This document shows, in pieces, positions 4,210-16,639 of a stretch of 16,639 nt of DNA. Made by a program: the position numbers and the translations under genes. The notes beneath the pieces are model-generated. The model was given only the letters and a program-made list of their open reading frames with translations, was not told the origin of the DNA and did not search any database. The DNA comes from Rheinheimera sp. (lineage in GTDB: Bacteria > Pseudomonadota > Gammaproteobacteria > Enterobacterales > Alteromonadaceae), in assembly GCF_020217005.1 (NCBI RefSeq), contig NZ_JAIWOI010000329.1, positions 1-16,639 on the forward strand, read 5' to 3'. Numbering within the stretch: the stretch's first letter is position 1; each line of letters opens with the position of its first letter.

Positions 4210-6531
4210 TTACTTTTTAAACTTGGCAAAAGCCTGAGCAAAAGCATTGCCCATAGCGGCATTTGGTACTTCTGGCGTTTTTGCTGGTTTAGCCGCTTTG
4301 GCTGAACCTGAGCCTGCAGAACGTGACGCCTCTTTTCCGGCACCGCCAGCGCCCTTGGCCGCCGGTTGTTCGTCCATTCGCATCGTTAACGCTATACGTT
4401 TACGGTCCAGTTCAACTTCCAGTACTTTCACTTTGACGATATCGCCAGCTTTAACCACCTGATGTGGGTCTGAGACAAACTTGTCCGTTAAAGAAGAAAT
4501 ATGCACTAAGCCGTCCTGATGCACGCCGATATCGACGAAAGCGCCAAAGTTGGTGACATTAGTGACCACGCCTTCCAGCAACATACCAGGCTTTAAGTCG
4601 GCCATGGTTTCTACGCCATCTTTAAAGGCAGCAGTTTTAAATTCAGGGCGAGGATCACGGCCTGGTTTATCCAGCTCTTTAATCACGTCTTCTACTGTAG
4701 GCAGACCAAAATGCTCGTCGACAAAATCGGCAGGATTCAGGCTTTTTAAGAAAGCGCTGTTGCCCAGCAGTTGCTCTATAGGTTGGCCAAATTTCGCCAG
4801 AATTTTTTCCACTAAAGGATAAGCTTCAGGGTGAACTGAAGAGGAATCCAAAGGATCCAAACCTTTGTTAATACGAAGGAAACCTGCAGCTTGTTCATAA
4901 GCTTTAGGCCCTAAGCGGGCAACTTTCAATAAATCTTTACGTTGCTGGAAGCGGCCGTGGGTGTCACGGTACACCACAATATTTTGGGCCAGCGTTTTGT
5001 TTAAACCTGCTACCCTTGCCAGTAAAGGCACGGACGCCATATTTAAATCCACACCAACGGCGTTTACACAGTCTTCCACTACGGCGTCCAGAGACTTCGC
5101 TAACAAGCTTTGGTTCACATCGTGCTGGTATTGCCCAACACCTATAGCTTTAGGCTCCACTTTCACCAACTCGGCCAATGGATCCTGTAAACGACGGCCT
5201 ATAGACACAGCACCACGTAAGGATACATCCAGATCCGGGAATTCCTGTGAGGCCAGCTCGGAAGCTGAATACACCGAAGCACCGGCTTCAGACACCATAA
5301 TTTTGCTGATATTCTGTTCTGGCAGCAGTTTGATCACATCGGCGGCTAACTTGTCGGTTTCGCGTGAAGCTGTACCGTTACCAATAGCGATCAGCTCAAT
5401 TTTGTGTTGTTTAGCTAAAGCCGCTAAAGTGCGGACAGATTTGTCCCAGTGATTTTGTGGGGCATGAGGGAATACAGTGGTCTGGTCCACCAGCTTGCCG
5501 GTTTCATCAATAGCAGTGACTTTCACACCAGTACGTAAACCCGGGTCCAGTGCCAGCGTAGGGCGCATACCAGCCGGGGCGGCCATTAATAAGTCTTTTA
5601 AGTTACGGGCAAATACTTTAATGGCTTCCTCTTCGGCTTGCTCACGCAATTCGCCTAACAAGTCATTTTCTAAATGCAGGTGTAATTTTACTTTCCAGGT
5701 CCATTGCACAACAGTACGCAGAAAATCATCAGCAGCACGGCCTTGCTGGCGGATATCAAAATGGTTGGCGATCATTTGTTCGCAGATGGCATGAGCAGAA
5801 GTGTCGTCGGCATCAGGTTGCAATTGCAGGTTTAAAATGCCTTCGTTGCGGCCACGGAACATCGCCAATGCGCGATGGGACGGCACTGTTTTAAAAGCTT
5901 CTTTGTGTTCAAAATAATCGCGGAACTTAGCGCCTTCCTGCTCTTTACCTGCCACCATGCTGCTTTTCAGTACGGCATTCTGGCTTAAGTGACGGCGCAA
6001 TTTTGCCAGCAACGCTGCATCTTCGGCAAAACGTTCCATCAGAATGTATTTCACACCATCCAGCACAGCTTTGCTGTCGGCAAAACCAGCTTCGGCGTTT
6101 AAATAAGTGGCAGCTTGTTGCTCCGGCACTAAAGTGGGGTCGTTAAACAGCGCATTGGCCAGAGGTTCTAAGCCCGCTTCAATAGCGATTTGGCCTTTGG
6201 TACGGCGTTTTGCCTTATAAGGCAAATACAAATCTTCTAAACGGGTTTTATTGTCTGCCGCCAACAGTTCTTGTTTCAGCTCTGGTGTCAGCTTGCCTTG
6301 TTCATCTATGGTTTTGATAATGACCTGACGTCTGTCTTCCAGCTCACGCAAATAAGTCAAGCGCAGATCCAGGTTACGTAGCTGGGTATCGTCCAGGCCA
6401 CCTGTGACTTCTTTACGGTAACGGGCGATAAAAGGCACAGTAGCGCCTTCGTCCATCAACTGAATAGCTGCTGCAACCTGCTCTGGACGTGCTGAAATTT
6501 CCAGAGCAATTTGTTTAATAATCATAGACAT
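4210..6531 (-). CDS. tex: Transcription accessory protein Tex (S1 RNA-binding protein, YhgF)
   Basis: Tex is a cytoplasmic nucleic-acid-binding protein linked to transcription and to expression of toxins and stress genes. The 773-aa length is normal. Domains in order: helical Tex N-terminus (about 1-320, with [17 protein letters not shown] at 32-48), YqgF/RNase H-like fold from about 324 ([13 protein letters not shown], then [13 protein letters not shown] at 381-393), helix-hairpin-helix region (about 495-550, VDLNMAS to [11 protein letters not shown]), and an S1 domain (about 647-718, [21 protein letters not shown]). A low-complexity Ala/Gly/Ser/Lys tail of about 55 residues ends it. The start has AGGAAG 9 bases upstream. 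In E. coli tex (yhgF) sits next to greB; here an aldehyde dehydrogenase gene lies between them. Confidence 0.97.
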
Positions 6532-12993: not shown

Positions 12994-13842
12994 TTAGAAC
13001 TTGTTCAATAATAAAGACAATTCTGCACTATCAAACAGATAAGTACTGTTGCAGTAATCACAACTGATCTCCAGTTTGCCTTCTGCTATATGCTCTTCGA
13101 TAACAGACTTACCAAGACTAATAATAGCGGCCTCACATTTTTCTCTGGAGCAACCACAGACAAAACGTATAGCTTGCGGCGCGAACAACTCAACTTCTTC
13201 GTCGTGATACAAGCGGTGTAGCATTTGTTCAGTGGGTAAGTTCAGCAATTCGCTTGAGGTGATAGTGTCTGTGACTATCACTAAATCACTGAAGTCCTGT
13301 TTGGCTTTTTCAGGGTCTACAGGCAATACCTGCAACAGTAAACCCGCTGCCCGGCTGTGGCTTTCTGTCAGTTCAGTAAATAGATACAAACGGGTTGGCA
13401 ACTGCTCAGACTGTGCAAAATAGGCTTCTAATGTTTCTGTCAGGCTATCTCCTGTCAAAGGGATAATGCCCTGATAACGTTCACCTTGTTTTGGCGTTAT
13501 AGTGACCAGCATATAGCCTTCACCTATTAAGTCCCTGAAGCCTGTAGCGCCTATTTCAGCTTGCAGACGGGCTACTCCGCGAAACTCTTGCTCTGCAGTA
13601 CCATTGACTGCGGCAAAACGCACAGGACCATCGCCTTGCAACTGCACTGCAATATCACCATCCAGTTTTAAGGTCGCTGTCAGCAAGCTGGTAGCAACCA
13701 CCAGTTCCGCCAACAATTGTTTCACCGGATATGGGTAATCGTGATTTTGCAGCATTTGTTGCAGACTGTCGGAGGTGTACGCGATTTCGCCTCTGACGTC
13801 GCGCTGGTTAAATAAAAAACGTACTAACAGATCTTGATTCAT
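12994..13842 (-). CDS. hslO: Redox-regulated holdase chaperone Hsp33
   Basis: Hsp33 is a cytoplasmic chaperone activated by oxidation and unfolding, which releases zinc from four cysteines. The 282-aa product shows the expected C-terminal switch: Cys229-Gly-Cys231 and Cys261-Asp-Tyr-Cys264; an extra Cys236 (SREKC) is also present. The N-terminal substrate-binding domain contains LQGDGPVRFAAV and later RYQGIIPLTGDSL. A ribosome site (TAAGG) precedes the ATG. The remaining hslR copy ends 16 bp upstream, so hslR-hslO was an operon. Because that hslR is now truncated, the promoter driving hslO is probably changed. Confidence 0.97.
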   Translation of the reverse strand: MNQDLLVRFLFNQRDVRGEIAYTSDSLQQMLQNHDYPYPVKQLLAELVVATSLLTATLKLDGDIAVQLQGDGPVRFAAVNGTAEQEFRGVARLQAEIGATGFRDLIGEGYMLVTITPKQGERYQGIIPLTGDSLTETLEAYFAQSEQLPTRLYLFTELTESHSRAAGLLLQVLPVDPEKAKQDFSDLVIVTDTITSSELLNLPTEQMLHRLYHDEEVELFAPQAIRFVCGCSREKCEAAIISLGKSVIEEHIAEGKLEISCDYCNSTYLFDSAELSLLLNKF

Positions 13843-13858
13843 AACATTACCTTAGGAC

Positions 13859-14212
13859 CTAGGATTGCTGAGCTTTAATCAGCAGCAATTGACGCCGCAT
13901 TTTTTTGTCCGGTTTGGTTTCCGGGTGAGGCGCGAACAGCACATTCATTTTACGTAACTCCGCGCGTTCAAGTTTAAGCTTGATACTCTCGTCTGTTTCC
14001 TGATAAAGAGCCTGAGCTAAAGGAGCTGACAGTCTTTTGTCAGATAAACCCACTACAAGCACAGTGCGCTCGTCTGTACCTTGTGTCAGTTTCACTGTTG
14101 CTCCGACTTCAACAGTTCGGCTTGCTTTACAACGCTGGCCATTATAATGAACTTTTCCGCCTTCGATCATGTCTTTTGCCAGCGCTCTGGTTTTGTAAAA
14201 ACGACAAGCCAA
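13859..14212 (-). pseudogene. hslR: hslR copy 1, 5'-truncated remnant (Hsp15, S4 RNA-binding protein)
   Basis: Hsp15 binds stalled 50S subunits carrying nascent chains, through an S4 domain. This copy retains ACRFYKTRALAK, GGKVHYNGQRCKAS and the basic C-terminus (HPETKPDKKMRRQLL) but lacks about the first 20 residues, including the RLDxWxW start of the S4 fold. Upstream of the homologous part the frame has no ATG or GTG before an in-frame TAA (about 14233-14235). Only a TTG at 14210-14212 is available, with no ribosome site. Identity to the full copy at 14469-14867 is about 82% over 116 residues by my own alignment, too diverged for a recent tandem duplication. The break coincides with the start of repeat-rich DNA, so I read this as the native gene cut by an insertion. 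A truncated functional product is not excluded. Confidence 0.72.
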
Positions 14213-14232
14213 CGCTTTATATGTTTCAAATT

Positions 14233-14375
14233 ATGTATCCACTTAAAGGCCTGTAAAGCCAAAAGTTAGGCAAATACTAACTTTAATCGACTAATCCACT
14301 GAATAAGTGGATACATTTTTTAGGATACATTTATTTCAAGCGTTGTTGAGTCGAAATTCCAGTATCAAGGATACA
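14233..14375. repeat. Nested inverted repeats and GGATACA cluster next to the hslR break
   Basis: The outer pair ATGTATCCACTTA (14233-14245) and its exact complement (14304-14316) share nearly the same centre as an inner perfect pair AAAGTTAG (14262-14269) and CTAACTTT (14277-14284), which flank a 7-nt core GCAAATA. GGATACA or its complement occurs four times (14234-14240, 14309-14315, 14323-14329, 14369-14375), and GGATACATTT is directly repeated at 14309 and 14323. Inner arms around a 7-nt core plus additional arm-like repeats would fit the end of a tyrosine-recombinase element. The 84-bp unit 14233-14316 could instead be a tiny MITE. The rest of the 14213-14468 gap shows nothing recognisable. 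Confidence 0.6.
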
Positions 14376-14468
14376 AAATTCGCGTTTTTATGCCTTGGAC
14401 TCAAAGCGATTTTCCAGACCAAAGGCCCAAAAAAGCTCAAAACCGATCACATCTGAAATTGAAGCCGA

Positions 14469-14867
14469 TTATGATTGCTGCGATTTAAGTAACAACAATT
14501 GTCGCCGCATTTTTTTGTCAGGCTTGGTATCAGGATGTGGAGCGAAAAGGTTGTTCATTTTTCGAAGTTCGGCCCGCTCCAAACGTAAAGTTTGGCTTTC
14601 GCTGGTTTCCTCGTATAACGCCTGAGCGAGAGGTGCAGCAAGCCGTTTGTCTGATAAACCTTTTACAATGATTGTTTTTTCATCAGTACCCTGTGTGAGT
14701 CTAATGGTCGCGCCAACTTCAACCATTCTGCTCGCTTTGCAGCGTTGGCCATTATATTGGACCTTTCCACCCTCAATCATGCTTTTTGCCAAAGTCCGGG
14801 TTTTATAGAATCTCGCGGCCCACACCCAGCTGTCCAAGCGAACCGAATCAACATTATCTTTACTCAT
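14469..14867 (-). CDS. hslR: Hsp15 (heat shock protein 15), complete second hslR copy
   Basis: The 132-aa product has a complete S4 domain: VRLDSWVWAARFYKTRTLAK, then MIEGGKVQYNGQRCKAS, then VEVGATIRLTQG, and a basic C-terminal tail (HPDTKPDKKMRRQ). I chose the ATG at 14865-14867 because GAGGA lies 4 bases upstream; a longer frame to 14903 would add 12 residues without a ribosome site. A perfect TATAAT on the minus strand at 14916-14921 is a likely -10 element. It lies on the far side of the repeat cluster from the truncated copy and hslO. It probably arrived with inserted DNA and now supplies Hsp15 function. Confidence 0.9.
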   Translation of the reverse strand: MSKDNVDSVRLDSWVWAARFYKTRTLAKSMIEGGKVQYNGQRCKASRMVEVGATIRLTQGTDEKTIIVKGLSDKRLAAPLAQALYEETSESQTLRLERAELRKMNNLFAPHPDTKPDKKMRRQLLLLKSQQS

Positions 14868-14915
14868 AAGTCCTCGAAAAGCGATGCCAAGGTCTGCTAC
14901 CAATAGTATGAATTA

Positions 14916-14921
14916 ATTATA
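14916..14921 (-). promoter_or_regulatory. Candidate -10 element of the complete hslR
   Basis: TATAAT, a perfect consensus on the minus strand, lies 48 bp before the ATG. No good -35 hexamer is found 16-18 bp upstream, so the call rests on the -10 alone. Confidence 0.45.
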
Positions 14922-15021
14922 CATGATGATGTCTTTTAGAGTGATTTTGACTTGTGGGGGTGATTGCATACAAGAAGTGCCAACGATGCACCTGTATCTA
15001 TCTTCAACGCGACTTTATTAA

Positions 15022-15073
15022 CTTTAAGCGTCACAGAAATTAATCTCAAACAGACCGACGCTATGCGCTAAAG
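15022..15073. repeat. Hairpin in the gene-free stretch right of the second hslR
   Basis: CTTTA-AGCGTC (15022-15032) pairs with GACGCT...TAAAG (15057-15073), with a 6-nt bulge and a 24-nt loop. It is the only structure I find between the hslR promoter and 15250. I see no credible gene, tRNA or recombinase site in 14922-15252; very short peptides cannot be excluded. Confidence 0.4.
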
Positions 15074-15252
15074 CGGATATTCGTAATATATCTGGACGGG
15101 TACTCAGTGTTGTTTGCTTTCATCATAAAACAGGCAAGCTTTGAGCAAATCGATAGGCACATTTATCTGTTGCTGAAAAAGAAAAAACATTCTAGTTTAG
15201 AAACTTAGAGTGGATCGACCTAAAAATAACAGGCCAGATAAGAGTAATAATG

Positions 15253-15348
15253 TGCCAGCACGCGTTTGGTAGTAGCTAGCGGTGGTTGGTTGATTAATAA
15301 GTTAATGCTGCTGTTTCATCTGGTAGAACCAGATAACGCGTGCTGGCA
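15253..15348. repeat. 14-bp perfect inverted repeat around a 68-nt structured centre
   Basis: TGCCAGCACGCGTT (15253-15266) and its exact complement (15335-15348) bracket 68 nt. Inside the right arm is a second perfect hairpin ATCTGGT-AGA-ACCAGAT (15318-15334), and just outside is AACAAT-ACACA-ATTGTT (15348-15364). A transcript would fold strongly. Possible natures are a small RNA, a recombination site folded as single-stranded DNA, or a very short inverted-repeat element. No target duplication is visible. Confidence 0.6.
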
Positions 15349-15481
15349 ACAATACACAATTGTTAAGCGTATAAATCATCATGACTTGGAGGTAACGGTA
15401 GGTATTGAAGCAAGAGCAGTGATCTCGTTCGGGTTGGAAGTGAATGTTGAAGTGAAAGCGAAAGCCGTAATGGAGGTAATC

Positions 15482-15646
15482 ATGGATAATTTGATCGTAT
15501 TTATTACATGCGTTTGGTGCGGAGTGGCGTTTTTGCGGGCCTGGTGGGACACTTTCAATCCGAACGAGAGATCAGTAATTGTGAATTACCTGCCAGATCC
15601 AGGAAAAACGAGAGGGGGTTCGATTCCTCCTCCCCGCACCAATTAA
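15482..15646 (+). CDS. Possible small single-pass membrane protein, 54 aa
   Basis: The ATG at 15482 follows TGGAGG with 5-base spacing, a good ribosome site. The peptide starts MDNLIVFITCVWCGVAFL, one strong hydrophobic segment, then RAWWDTFNPNERSVIVNYLP and a Pro-rich end (GGSIPPPRTN). The frame extends upstream to a TTG at 15266 without a ribosome site, so the longer version is unlikely. The last eleven codons overlap a tRNA 3'-half-like sequence, which explains the odd Ser-Ile-Pro-Pro-Pro ending and weakens the case for an old conserved gene. I do not recognise it. It could be a real small protein whose end was created by the tRNA fragment, or a chance frame. Confidence 0.4.
   Translation: MDNLIVFITCVWCGVAFLRAWWDTFNPNERSVIVNYLPDPGKTRGGSIPPPRTN
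15614..15641 (+). other. tRNA 3'-half-like sequence (T-arm, acceptor strand, CCA)
   Basis: The layout is exactly tRNA-like: T-stem GGGGG, loop TTCGATT, T-stem CCTCC (one G:T pair), seven acceptor bases TCCCCGC, discriminator A, CCA. The matching 5' acceptor strand GCGGGGA is absent upstream. A 4-bp stem with loop TTGTGAA at 15575-15589 would mimic an anticodon arm, but D-arm spacing does not fit. It is best read as a remnant of a tRNA gene, such as a recombination scar at a tRNA 3' end, not a working tRNA. Confidence 0.5.
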
Positions 15647-15670
15647 TGAGCGCAGCAACATAGTGTCAGT

Positions 15671-15754
15671 ACTTAACAAGGGCAGGCACGGCGACTGCTT
15701 TTTCGTTTAGGCTTCGCCTCAAACATATATTCACGCATGTTGCGGGCGTTAACT
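15671..15754 (+). repeat. attC-like recombination site (tentative)
   Basis: ACTTAAC (15671-15677) matches the integron R'' form RYYYAAC. GCGGGCGTTAACT ends the region, with GTTAACT (15748-15754) one base off the R' form GTTRRRY. Between them, GCGACTGC (15691-15698) pairs with GCATGTTGC (15735-15743) through one bulge and one G:T, and GTTTAGGC-TTC-GCCTCAAAC (15705-15724) forms an inner hairpin with one bulged base. The 84-bp length suits an attC, but spacing between core sites and stem is asymmetric (13 versus 4 nt), which is atypical. Confidence 0.35.
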
Positions 15755-15767
15755 TTCTTCGGAGTTT

Positions 15768-16406
15768 ATGGCATTGATAGAAGAATCTTGTAGCTTAATT
15801 GGGACTTGGATAGAGCCGAAATATGTAATTCCGGCAGCTATGGCATTGCTATCGTCAGGGCTTTTTCCATTTTTTCTTCACAAATATAAAATGACTAGAG
15901 AGCGTGAGGAAAAGTTGTTCGATACTAGAAAAACGGAATACCAAGAATATTTCAAAGTGATGGAAAGAGCTGCTCGGTTGGCGGGACAAGATTATGACAA
16001 ATTCTTATCTGAAACATTGCCTGAAGCTTCATTGCGCCTTTATAAAGAAGAGTCCTCACCTGAATCGTTAGTTAATTATCAAAATACAATGAATGAATTT
16101 ACCAAAGGTATTCAGGAAGGTTTTCAAAAGGCAACTCATGAGTTAGTCGGGTTGCGGATTGTATGCTCAGATACACTGGCTGGGTTACTAGATAAATTTG
16201 AATCATTGTACAAAGATATTCTTTCTCTCCAACCCATGATGTTAAAGGAAATTAGAGAGTCTATGACTCCTGAGTCATTTATGTCTGGTGAGTTTAATTT
16301 CGAAACACCTACCCAAGTAAAAATGGTAGAAATGGGCACTAATTTAGGCTTGCTCAGAGATGCCATTATAAAGCAAATGCGAATAGAGCTTGGTTATAAA
16401 AGTTAA
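15768..16406 (+). CDS. Membrane-anchored coiled-coil protein of unknown function, 212 aa
   Basis: Residues about 17-38 (KYVIPAAMALLSSGLFPFFLHKY) form one hydrophobic segment, followed by a basic/acidic stretch (KMTREREEKLFDTRKTEYQEYFK). The rest is strongly helical and charged, with heptad-like hydrophobic spacing, probably a cytoplasmic coiled coil on an N-terminal anchor. There is no signal peptidase site, cysteine pair or catalytic motif. GGAG lies 3 bases before the ATG. Codon use looks more A/T-rich than in the core genes, consistent with acquired DNA. The ATG is 13 bases after GTTAACT, and the stop TAA lies inside AGTTAAC, the exact complement of that motif, the geometry expected of an integron cassette gene. 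I do not recognise the family. Confidence 0.8.
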   Translation: MALIEESCSLIGTWIEPKYVIPAAMALLSSGLFPFFLHKYKMTREREEKLFDTRKTEYQEYFKVMERAARLAGQDYDKFLSETLPEASLRLYKEESSPESLVNYQNTMNEFTKGIQEGFQKATHELVGLRIVCSDTLAGLLDKFESLYKDILSLQPMMLKEIRESMTPESFMSGEFNFETPTQVKMVEMGTNLGLLRDAIIKQMRIELGYKS

Positions 16407-16639
16407 CAAACAGAGACGGTTTTTCGTCATGGTTTCACCTTAAAAGCGAAGTTACACATACTGAGAGCGTGAATGTCTGCAATTGTTCAAAGCGTAGATC
16501 GGTTCTGTGCCAAAAGCGGAAATTTACTGAGATTCGACTAGATCGGCGCTTTTCACTGAAAGCAGACAATCCTGCCAAAACTAAAGCTGAGCTCTCGAAA
16601 ATTTCGAGACTTCAATACATCGTTAAAACGTAAAAAAGC
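16407..16639. other. Non-coding tail with several inverted repeats
   Basis: No supported gene. Inverted pairs include CAGAGAC/GTCTG (near 16410 and 16475), GTCTGC/GCAGAC (near 16475 and 16562), AAAAGCG/CGCTTTT (16512-16518 and 16547-16553), and a near-perfect palindrome TCTCGAAA-A-TTTCGAGA (16593-16609). Some may belong to a recombination site after the 212-aa gene, but no good closing core site is found. Confidence 0.4.

Follow-up and report, generated by a model that had tools for sequence, protein, structure and literature searches.

We analyzed a stretch of 16,639 nucleotides from Rheinheimera sp. (hereafter, the window), which is the entire contig C329 of a genome (G000) in 379 contigs. 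It contains two hslR genes in the same orientation, one of them truncated and lying next to hslO; this name, as well as gspD and gspC used below, is what we take these genes to be. The features of this region are as follows, with the supporting evidence in brackets:

12994..13842, minus strand: hslO, the native gene downstream of hslR (open reading frame list; gspC-hslR-hslO order in the intact relative G006)
13859..14210, minus strand: 3' remnant of the native hslR, with the start side removed (open reading frame list, homology edge, placement in the tree with the native HslR of the genus)
14211..14216, minus strand: 6-bp spacer of attR, which reads AGCGTT on this strand and not GCTTTG, the native sequence retained at attL (comparison with attB of G006 and with G010)
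14217..14468, minus strand: element right end, which contains TGTATCC/GGATACA repeats and shares 91% identity with G010 (repeat reading, pairwise identity)
14230..14257, minus strand: TTTACA-16-CATAAT, a promoter-like site directed outward from the element, to the remnant and hslO (promoter scan; possibly a chance match)
14469..14867, minus strand: complete element-borne hslR of 132 aa, the putative replacement copy (open reading frame list, identities, tree, domain and family profiles)
14868..16639, no strand: cargo side of the element, continuing off the contig end (open reading frame list)
15768-16406, plus strand: open reading frame of 212 aa in the cargo side (open reading frame list)

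A preliminary description of this locus had claimed that the hslR copy beside hslO lacks the start of its S4 domain and has an in-frame stop just upstream, and both claims are borne out. The Pfam S4 match in the remnant covers profile positions 12-48, compared with 1-48 in the complete copy, and the remnant frame has its only opening at the TTG at 14212, downstream of an in-frame TAA (by eye and from the open reading frame list). The edge of the remnant is exact to the nucleotide: homology to intact hslR stops at 14210, and the spacer follows at 14211-14216. The complete gene has an ATG start with GAGG upstream (by eye), and its product scores above the cut-off of the NCBIfam Hsp15 equivalog (162.9 versus 148 bits). 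The identity of about 82% given earlier for the two copies holds for the proteins (82.5%, 94 of 114 positions), whereas the value for DNA is 69.6% (240 of 345). What had been described as repeat-rich DNA between them corresponds to the right end of the element, the approximately 250 bp before the complete hslR, in which four copies of TGTATCC/GGATACA are located at 14234-14375.

The promoter scan gave four promoter-like sites versus 2.7 expected by chance. The hexamers of the outward-pointing site are identical in G010 (Rheinheimera sp. A13L), the second genome carrying this element, and no site was found directly before the putative replacement hslR. No tRNA or tmRNA was detected in the window by ARAGORN, and the Rfam search of 13800-16639 gave nothing. 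Two minor features were observed within the element. Positions 15612-15640 read like a tRNA 3' end (GGTTCGATTCCTCCTCCCCGCACCA), with no gene called there by ARAGORN or Rfam, and a perfect 13-bp inverted repeat, GCCAGCACGCGTT / AACGCGTGCTGGC, was noticed by eye at 15254-15266 and 15335-15347, with a 68-bp loop.

Displaced start of hslR and borders of the element

In the intact relative G006 the gene order is gspD-gspC-hslR-hslO. A 700-bp stretch of this genome, from the upstream gene through the start of hslR, was used as a query against G000 and G010. In both genomes the query splits at the same point (1/2-623 and 622/624-700): the 5' fragment of the native hslR was found at G000:C59:7318 and G010:C46:24532, and the 3' part on the contig with the two hslR copies. 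The missing 5' part and an integrase gene, both anticipated by the preliminary description, were therefore located in both carriers on another contig, the displaced fragment being joined in each of them directly to a four-gene tyrosine-recombinase operon. The fragment lies on a separate contig because the contig of the window ends inside the element. Since the two ends of the element are on different contigs in both carriers, neither hslR island was assembled in one piece.

The borders were defined by comparing the two hosts with one empty relative. The empty site attB of G006 reads GATAAATG-GCTATG-GGCTTGTCG. The left border attL consists of GATAAATG-GCTTTG in the window's genome, or GATAAATG-GCTGTG in G010, followed by the element, and the right border attR consists of the element followed by AGCGTT in the window's genome, or GTGGTG in G010, and then GGCTTGTCG. 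In both hosts the 6 bp of attB stay at attL, and a foreign 6 bp is found at attR. These borders fit the 6-bp footprint described for strand-biased circularizing integrative elements (SEs), in which, according to the part of the report consulted, the native 6 bp are retained on the intA side and the 6 bp of the previous location on the other side (PMC10214605).

In both carriers, between which it is 84.6% identical in DNA, the operon starts some 90 bp into the element from its left border and includes four overlapping or adjacent open reading frames of 413, 756 (777), 926 and 169 aa. The first of them is the only one to match the Pfam phage integrase profile, with a score below the cut-off. In alignments of 10 sequences each, inspected by eye, the catalytic residues R, H-x-x-R, H and Y are conserved in the first and third proteins (IntA and IntB), and no such set is seen in the second (Tfp), the predicted model of which (pLDDT 79) has only a moderate likeness to topoisomerase and Cre-type recombinases. 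Among 22 genomes of the genus, the recombinase is present in two, namely the two carriers of the hslR element.

We propose the following scheme of integration. The movement of the island would be driven by the left-end operon, with two catalytic tyrosine recombinases, a non-catalytic middle protein and a small helper. The recombinases would make a circular copy, which would recombine at a short site in codons 18-20 of the native hslR (the D-K-W-L-W-A stretch). Through a 6-bp crossover, the left border would keep the native 6 bp, and the foreign 6 bp of the right border would, in analogy to SEs, come from the previous site. The native hslR is split, its promoter, start and 59 nt staying with the left end and the rest with hslO, and would die in this process, and the hslR carried at the right end, in the orientation of the old gene, would most likely supply Hsp15. 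The sequences themselves show the split gene, both borders with their differing spacers, the operon, the foreign origin of the carried copy and the recurrence of this pattern in relatives; we infer that the island would still be mobile today, that it would form a circular intermediate, and that its hslR would be expressed and functional.

Origin of the element-borne hslR

HslR was identified in 141 of the 147 genomes searched (including the window's own), with one copy in 139 genomes and two copies in two, the latter being the element carriers. Relatives having both copies in the same order without mobile DNA, which the preliminary description had named as evidence against integration, are absent from this set. 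The carried hslR genes of the two hosts are 97.5% identical in DNA (389 of 399 positions), and nine of the 10 changed codons are silent; the identity between the same hosts is 84.9% for the native hslR remnants, 82.8% for hslO and 77.7% for gspC. In the HslR tree (39 rows), the carried copies group together (100/97) and lie outside the clade of native genus sequences (94/87), and both remnants fall inside the latter, one with G012 (97/93) and the other with G008 (82/82). These comparisons establish, at the level of sequence, that the carried hslR is foreign in origin.

Two hslR copies standing side by side in the same orientation are also what a local tandem duplication would leave, if one copy had decayed and repeats had been inserted between them. 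Such a duplication, already disfavored in the preliminary description, is extremely improbable given that the complete copy branches outside the genus and the remnant inside it, and that the missing 5' part is intact elsewhere beside the recombinases. The borders, the operon and the tree agree instead with the alternative put forward there, an integrating element in the 5' part of hslR that carries a replacement copy. We are highly confident in the reading that a site-specific mobile island broke the native hslR and brought its own complete, diverged hslR, which most likely replaces the broken gene.

We also considered whether the carried copy is recoded at the attachment site, which would prevent re-targeting, and this idea is unsupported across eight gene pairs. 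The 36-nt core shows somewhat higher divergence in hslR (58% versus 69-71% elsewhere), with values as low in 10-13% of the sequence segments compared; it is not more diverged in the four dinB pairs and trmL, and is more conserved in yrfG.

The cargo near the carried hslR in G010 (L039 1970-8133) includes umuC/umuD-like genes, a DDE transposase, a gamma-glutamyl cyclotransferase-like gene and a TIR protein. umuDC was also observed near the Shewanella plasmid relative described below.

Proposed gene replacement across the recombinase family

The third protein of the operon was searched for in 394 genomes of the order (8 matched), 395 genomes of the family (27 matched) and 296 genomes of a second family (16 matched). 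The searches in the two families were made by profile, and the matches include six genomes with low-scoring, shorter proteins alone. Altogether, we examined 31 elements, the two hslR ones included. Outside this set there were 10 further full-length matches (G879, G050, G1030, G997, G824, G068, G1109, G1314, the second in G1365, and G1360) and six of the seven low-scoring ones.

In 28 of the 31 elements, the break in a conserved gene falls within the first quarter of the coding sequence, and the element holds a full diverged homologue of that gene. The broken genes are dinB (14 elements), dgt (five), trmL (five), hslR (two), yrfG (one), and a small gene of about 70 aa (one), and for hslR, yrfG, dgt, trmL and dinB the gene family was checked in a single carried copy. 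The carried and native proteins are 40-83% identical (eight pairs measured), and the carried copy adjoins the right border or the fourth recombinase gene, or is located further inside the element. For example, the dgt copy is beside the fourth recombinase gene in G086 and G974, in which the 5' dgt fragments were located and the stretch read stops before the right end. The dGTPase carried by dgt elements is of another type, and in three measured cases it is 22-24% identical to the native part. In G310 (L083), the only case scanned, the broken gene (4562-6040, minus strand) belongs to the anti-phage-dGTPase family and the carried one (12998-14044, plus strand) is E. coli Dgt-like; by these family assignments, this is a replacement by a different type of enzyme rather than by an orthologue. 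The other dgt elements carry similar dGTPase copies (71-80% identical).

In the IntA tree, the targets largely follow clades: 13 dinB elements form one clade and two others a separate pair, and the trmL and dgt clades have five and six elements, respectively. The hslR elements and the plasmid relative are placed next to yrfG, with weak support. Seven carriers having the element at other sites possess one HslR each, which suggests that carriage of an hslR copy is tied to the hslR target. Since most of the related elements examined do likewise to other conserved genes, the habit looks general rather than accidental.

These data also bear on whether a plain island broke hslR and the second hslR is merely unrelated passenger cargo at its end. 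The relative on a Shewanella plasmid (outside the 31), which has the closest IntA found among plasmids (87% identical), is in line with the passenger explanation, as no hslR was found in about 51 of its 198 kb read; hslR may therefore not be a fixed part of the recombinase lineage. However, the carried gene matches the broken gene in the 28 elements over six targets and the match changes with the target, and the single HslR of carriers with the element elsewhere points the same way. We therefore regard unrelated cargo as very unlikely and retain the reading that the carried hslR stands in for the broken one.

Among the 31 elements, one is without a homologous copy (G1025 C42) and two are unclear (G055 and G1072). 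In G1025 C42 dgt is broken, and no dGTPase copy was found up to the right end at about 72 kb. A gene for a YfbR-type 5'-deoxynucleotidase (L173 4671-5303, minus strand) adjoins the right border of this element and may be a functional stand-in for the dGTPase. In G055, dinB is present at full length to the left of intA, and no 5' dinB fragment was found there. In G1072, dinB is broken in the other orientation, IntA sits on a long branch close to the trmL clade, and no dinB copy was seen in about 25 kb of cargo read, which stops short of the right end. Three operons look decayed, in IntB (G1300), Tfp (G1364) and IntA (G1025 C46), so that some family members can apparently no longer move.

With regard to wider distribution, a scan of genome contigs with two close IntA sequences had Rheinheimera sp. 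A13L as its only match, a profile search across the class detected the third protein in one of 369 genomes, the window's own, and viral contigs searched with IntA, hslR and the right-end pattern gave nothing. Distant relatives (27-29%) were found on Methylobacter and Marinobacter plasmids, and a middle protein with 51% identity is recorded from Thiomicrorhabdus; the recombinase family therefore spans more than one order.

Based on this survey, we tentatively suggest, with somewhat less than even confidence, a family-wide swap rule by which four-gene tyrosine-recombinase elements break a single-copy conserved gene near its start and a foreign homologue takes over the function. If true, the host would depend on the element for the function of the broken gene, and loss of the cargo region would therefore be selected against without any toxin. 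The swap might also alter host biology, for instance where an anti-phage-type dGTPase is replaced by a different dGTPase. A diverged 'housekeeping' gene may then be mobile, which matters for gene trees and typing.

Relation to known elements

The hslR element might be nothing more than a member of the known SE group or of the GInt group. As far as the consulted part of the SE report goes (PMC10214605), the two share the gene order intA-tfp-intB-srap, a Tfp without RHRY, the 6-bp spacer behavior and Gammaproteobacterial hosts, and the core genes of the hslR element are larger. However, its Tfp, IntB and Srap had no match by hhalign and HMM in the SE of pAQU1, the sole SE compared, and the similarity of IntA was weak (37% probability by hhalign; 8.7 bits by HMM). 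GInts, in the sections consulted (PMC5385486), also have a four-gene recombination operon at one end and 6-nt staggered cuts, with some inserted at gene 5' ends, and one case beside a duplicated gene is mentioned. In contrast to the hslR element, in which the catalytic set is missing in the second protein, in the ginABCD operon of GInts GinA and GinB are catalytic and the protein without the first catalytic arginine is the third, GinC, and in these sections the authors propose an outward promoter rather than a carried gene copy. We did not file the hslR element as an SE because of the undetected homology of Tfp, IntB and Srap and the weak one of IntA, nor as a GInt because its gene order differs from the GInt descriptions. 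Simple membership in either group thus seems rather unlikely, and we continue to treat the element as an island that brings its own hslR.

Integration into a conserved gene with its function kept is known for prfC (SXT/R391), guaA and tRNA targets, where the element restores one end of the same gene. The hslR element instead supplies a second, complete, diverged gene.

Two isolated cases of an island replacing the broken gene, bcp and recA, had previously been printed, to judge from the parts of the reports consulted. Tn6283/SE-6283 disrupts bcp and has a bcp copy of its own, 54.8% identical at the protein level, for which the authors suggested compensation (PMC5991714, PMC9345347). Like the hslR element, it combines a broken conserved gene with a diverged full copy, the 6-bp spacer rule and core genes at one end; it differs in its target, in the size of IntB (731 versus 926 aa) and in that Tn6283 is 13.8 kb long. 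The V. cholerae recA mobile element (RME) breaks recA and carries a divergent recA, the function of which was shown experimentally by its authors (PMC4405046). It resembles the hslR element, by description and not by recombinase sequence, as an island in a conserved gene that has a complete divergent copy and an integrase gene at opposite ends, and it carries umuDC; umuC/umuD-like genes are part of the G010 cargo as well. Unlike the hslR element, it targets recA at mid-gene, has 9-bp inverted repeats, and is described with a phage integrase and XerS. In a limited literature search, which covered hslR and dinB among the targets, we found neither hslR as a target site nor self-replacement as a near-rule within one recombinase family. 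The finding of 28 in 31 elements across six targets, with the target largely following the recombinase clade, would turn anecdote into a testable principle, according to which coding genes may serve integrative elements as sites, and the elements may be maintained in the absence of toxin-antitoxin systems and disseminate foreign alleles of housekeeping genes.

Two further operons were observed in the course of this work. Contig C284 of G000 (L062, 8555-14654) contains a second, different recombinase operon (414, 161+389, 686 and 163 aa, the middle gene being in two pieces), which immediately follows a bcp-like gene cut close to the 3' end. Contig C64 of the same genome (L169) encodes a full Bcp-like protein with 54% identity to the cut one, and a bcp-type element with a replacement may therefore also be present in G000. 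In G895 (L167, 353-7952), a distant recombinase operon (374, 698, 668 and 205 aa), the third protein of which scores 99 bits to our third-protein profile, lies between two ion-channel genes that are 61% identical. The ion-channel gene on the intA side is without its domain end and its counterpart is located after the fourth gene, an arrangement that may represent the same swap in a further family.
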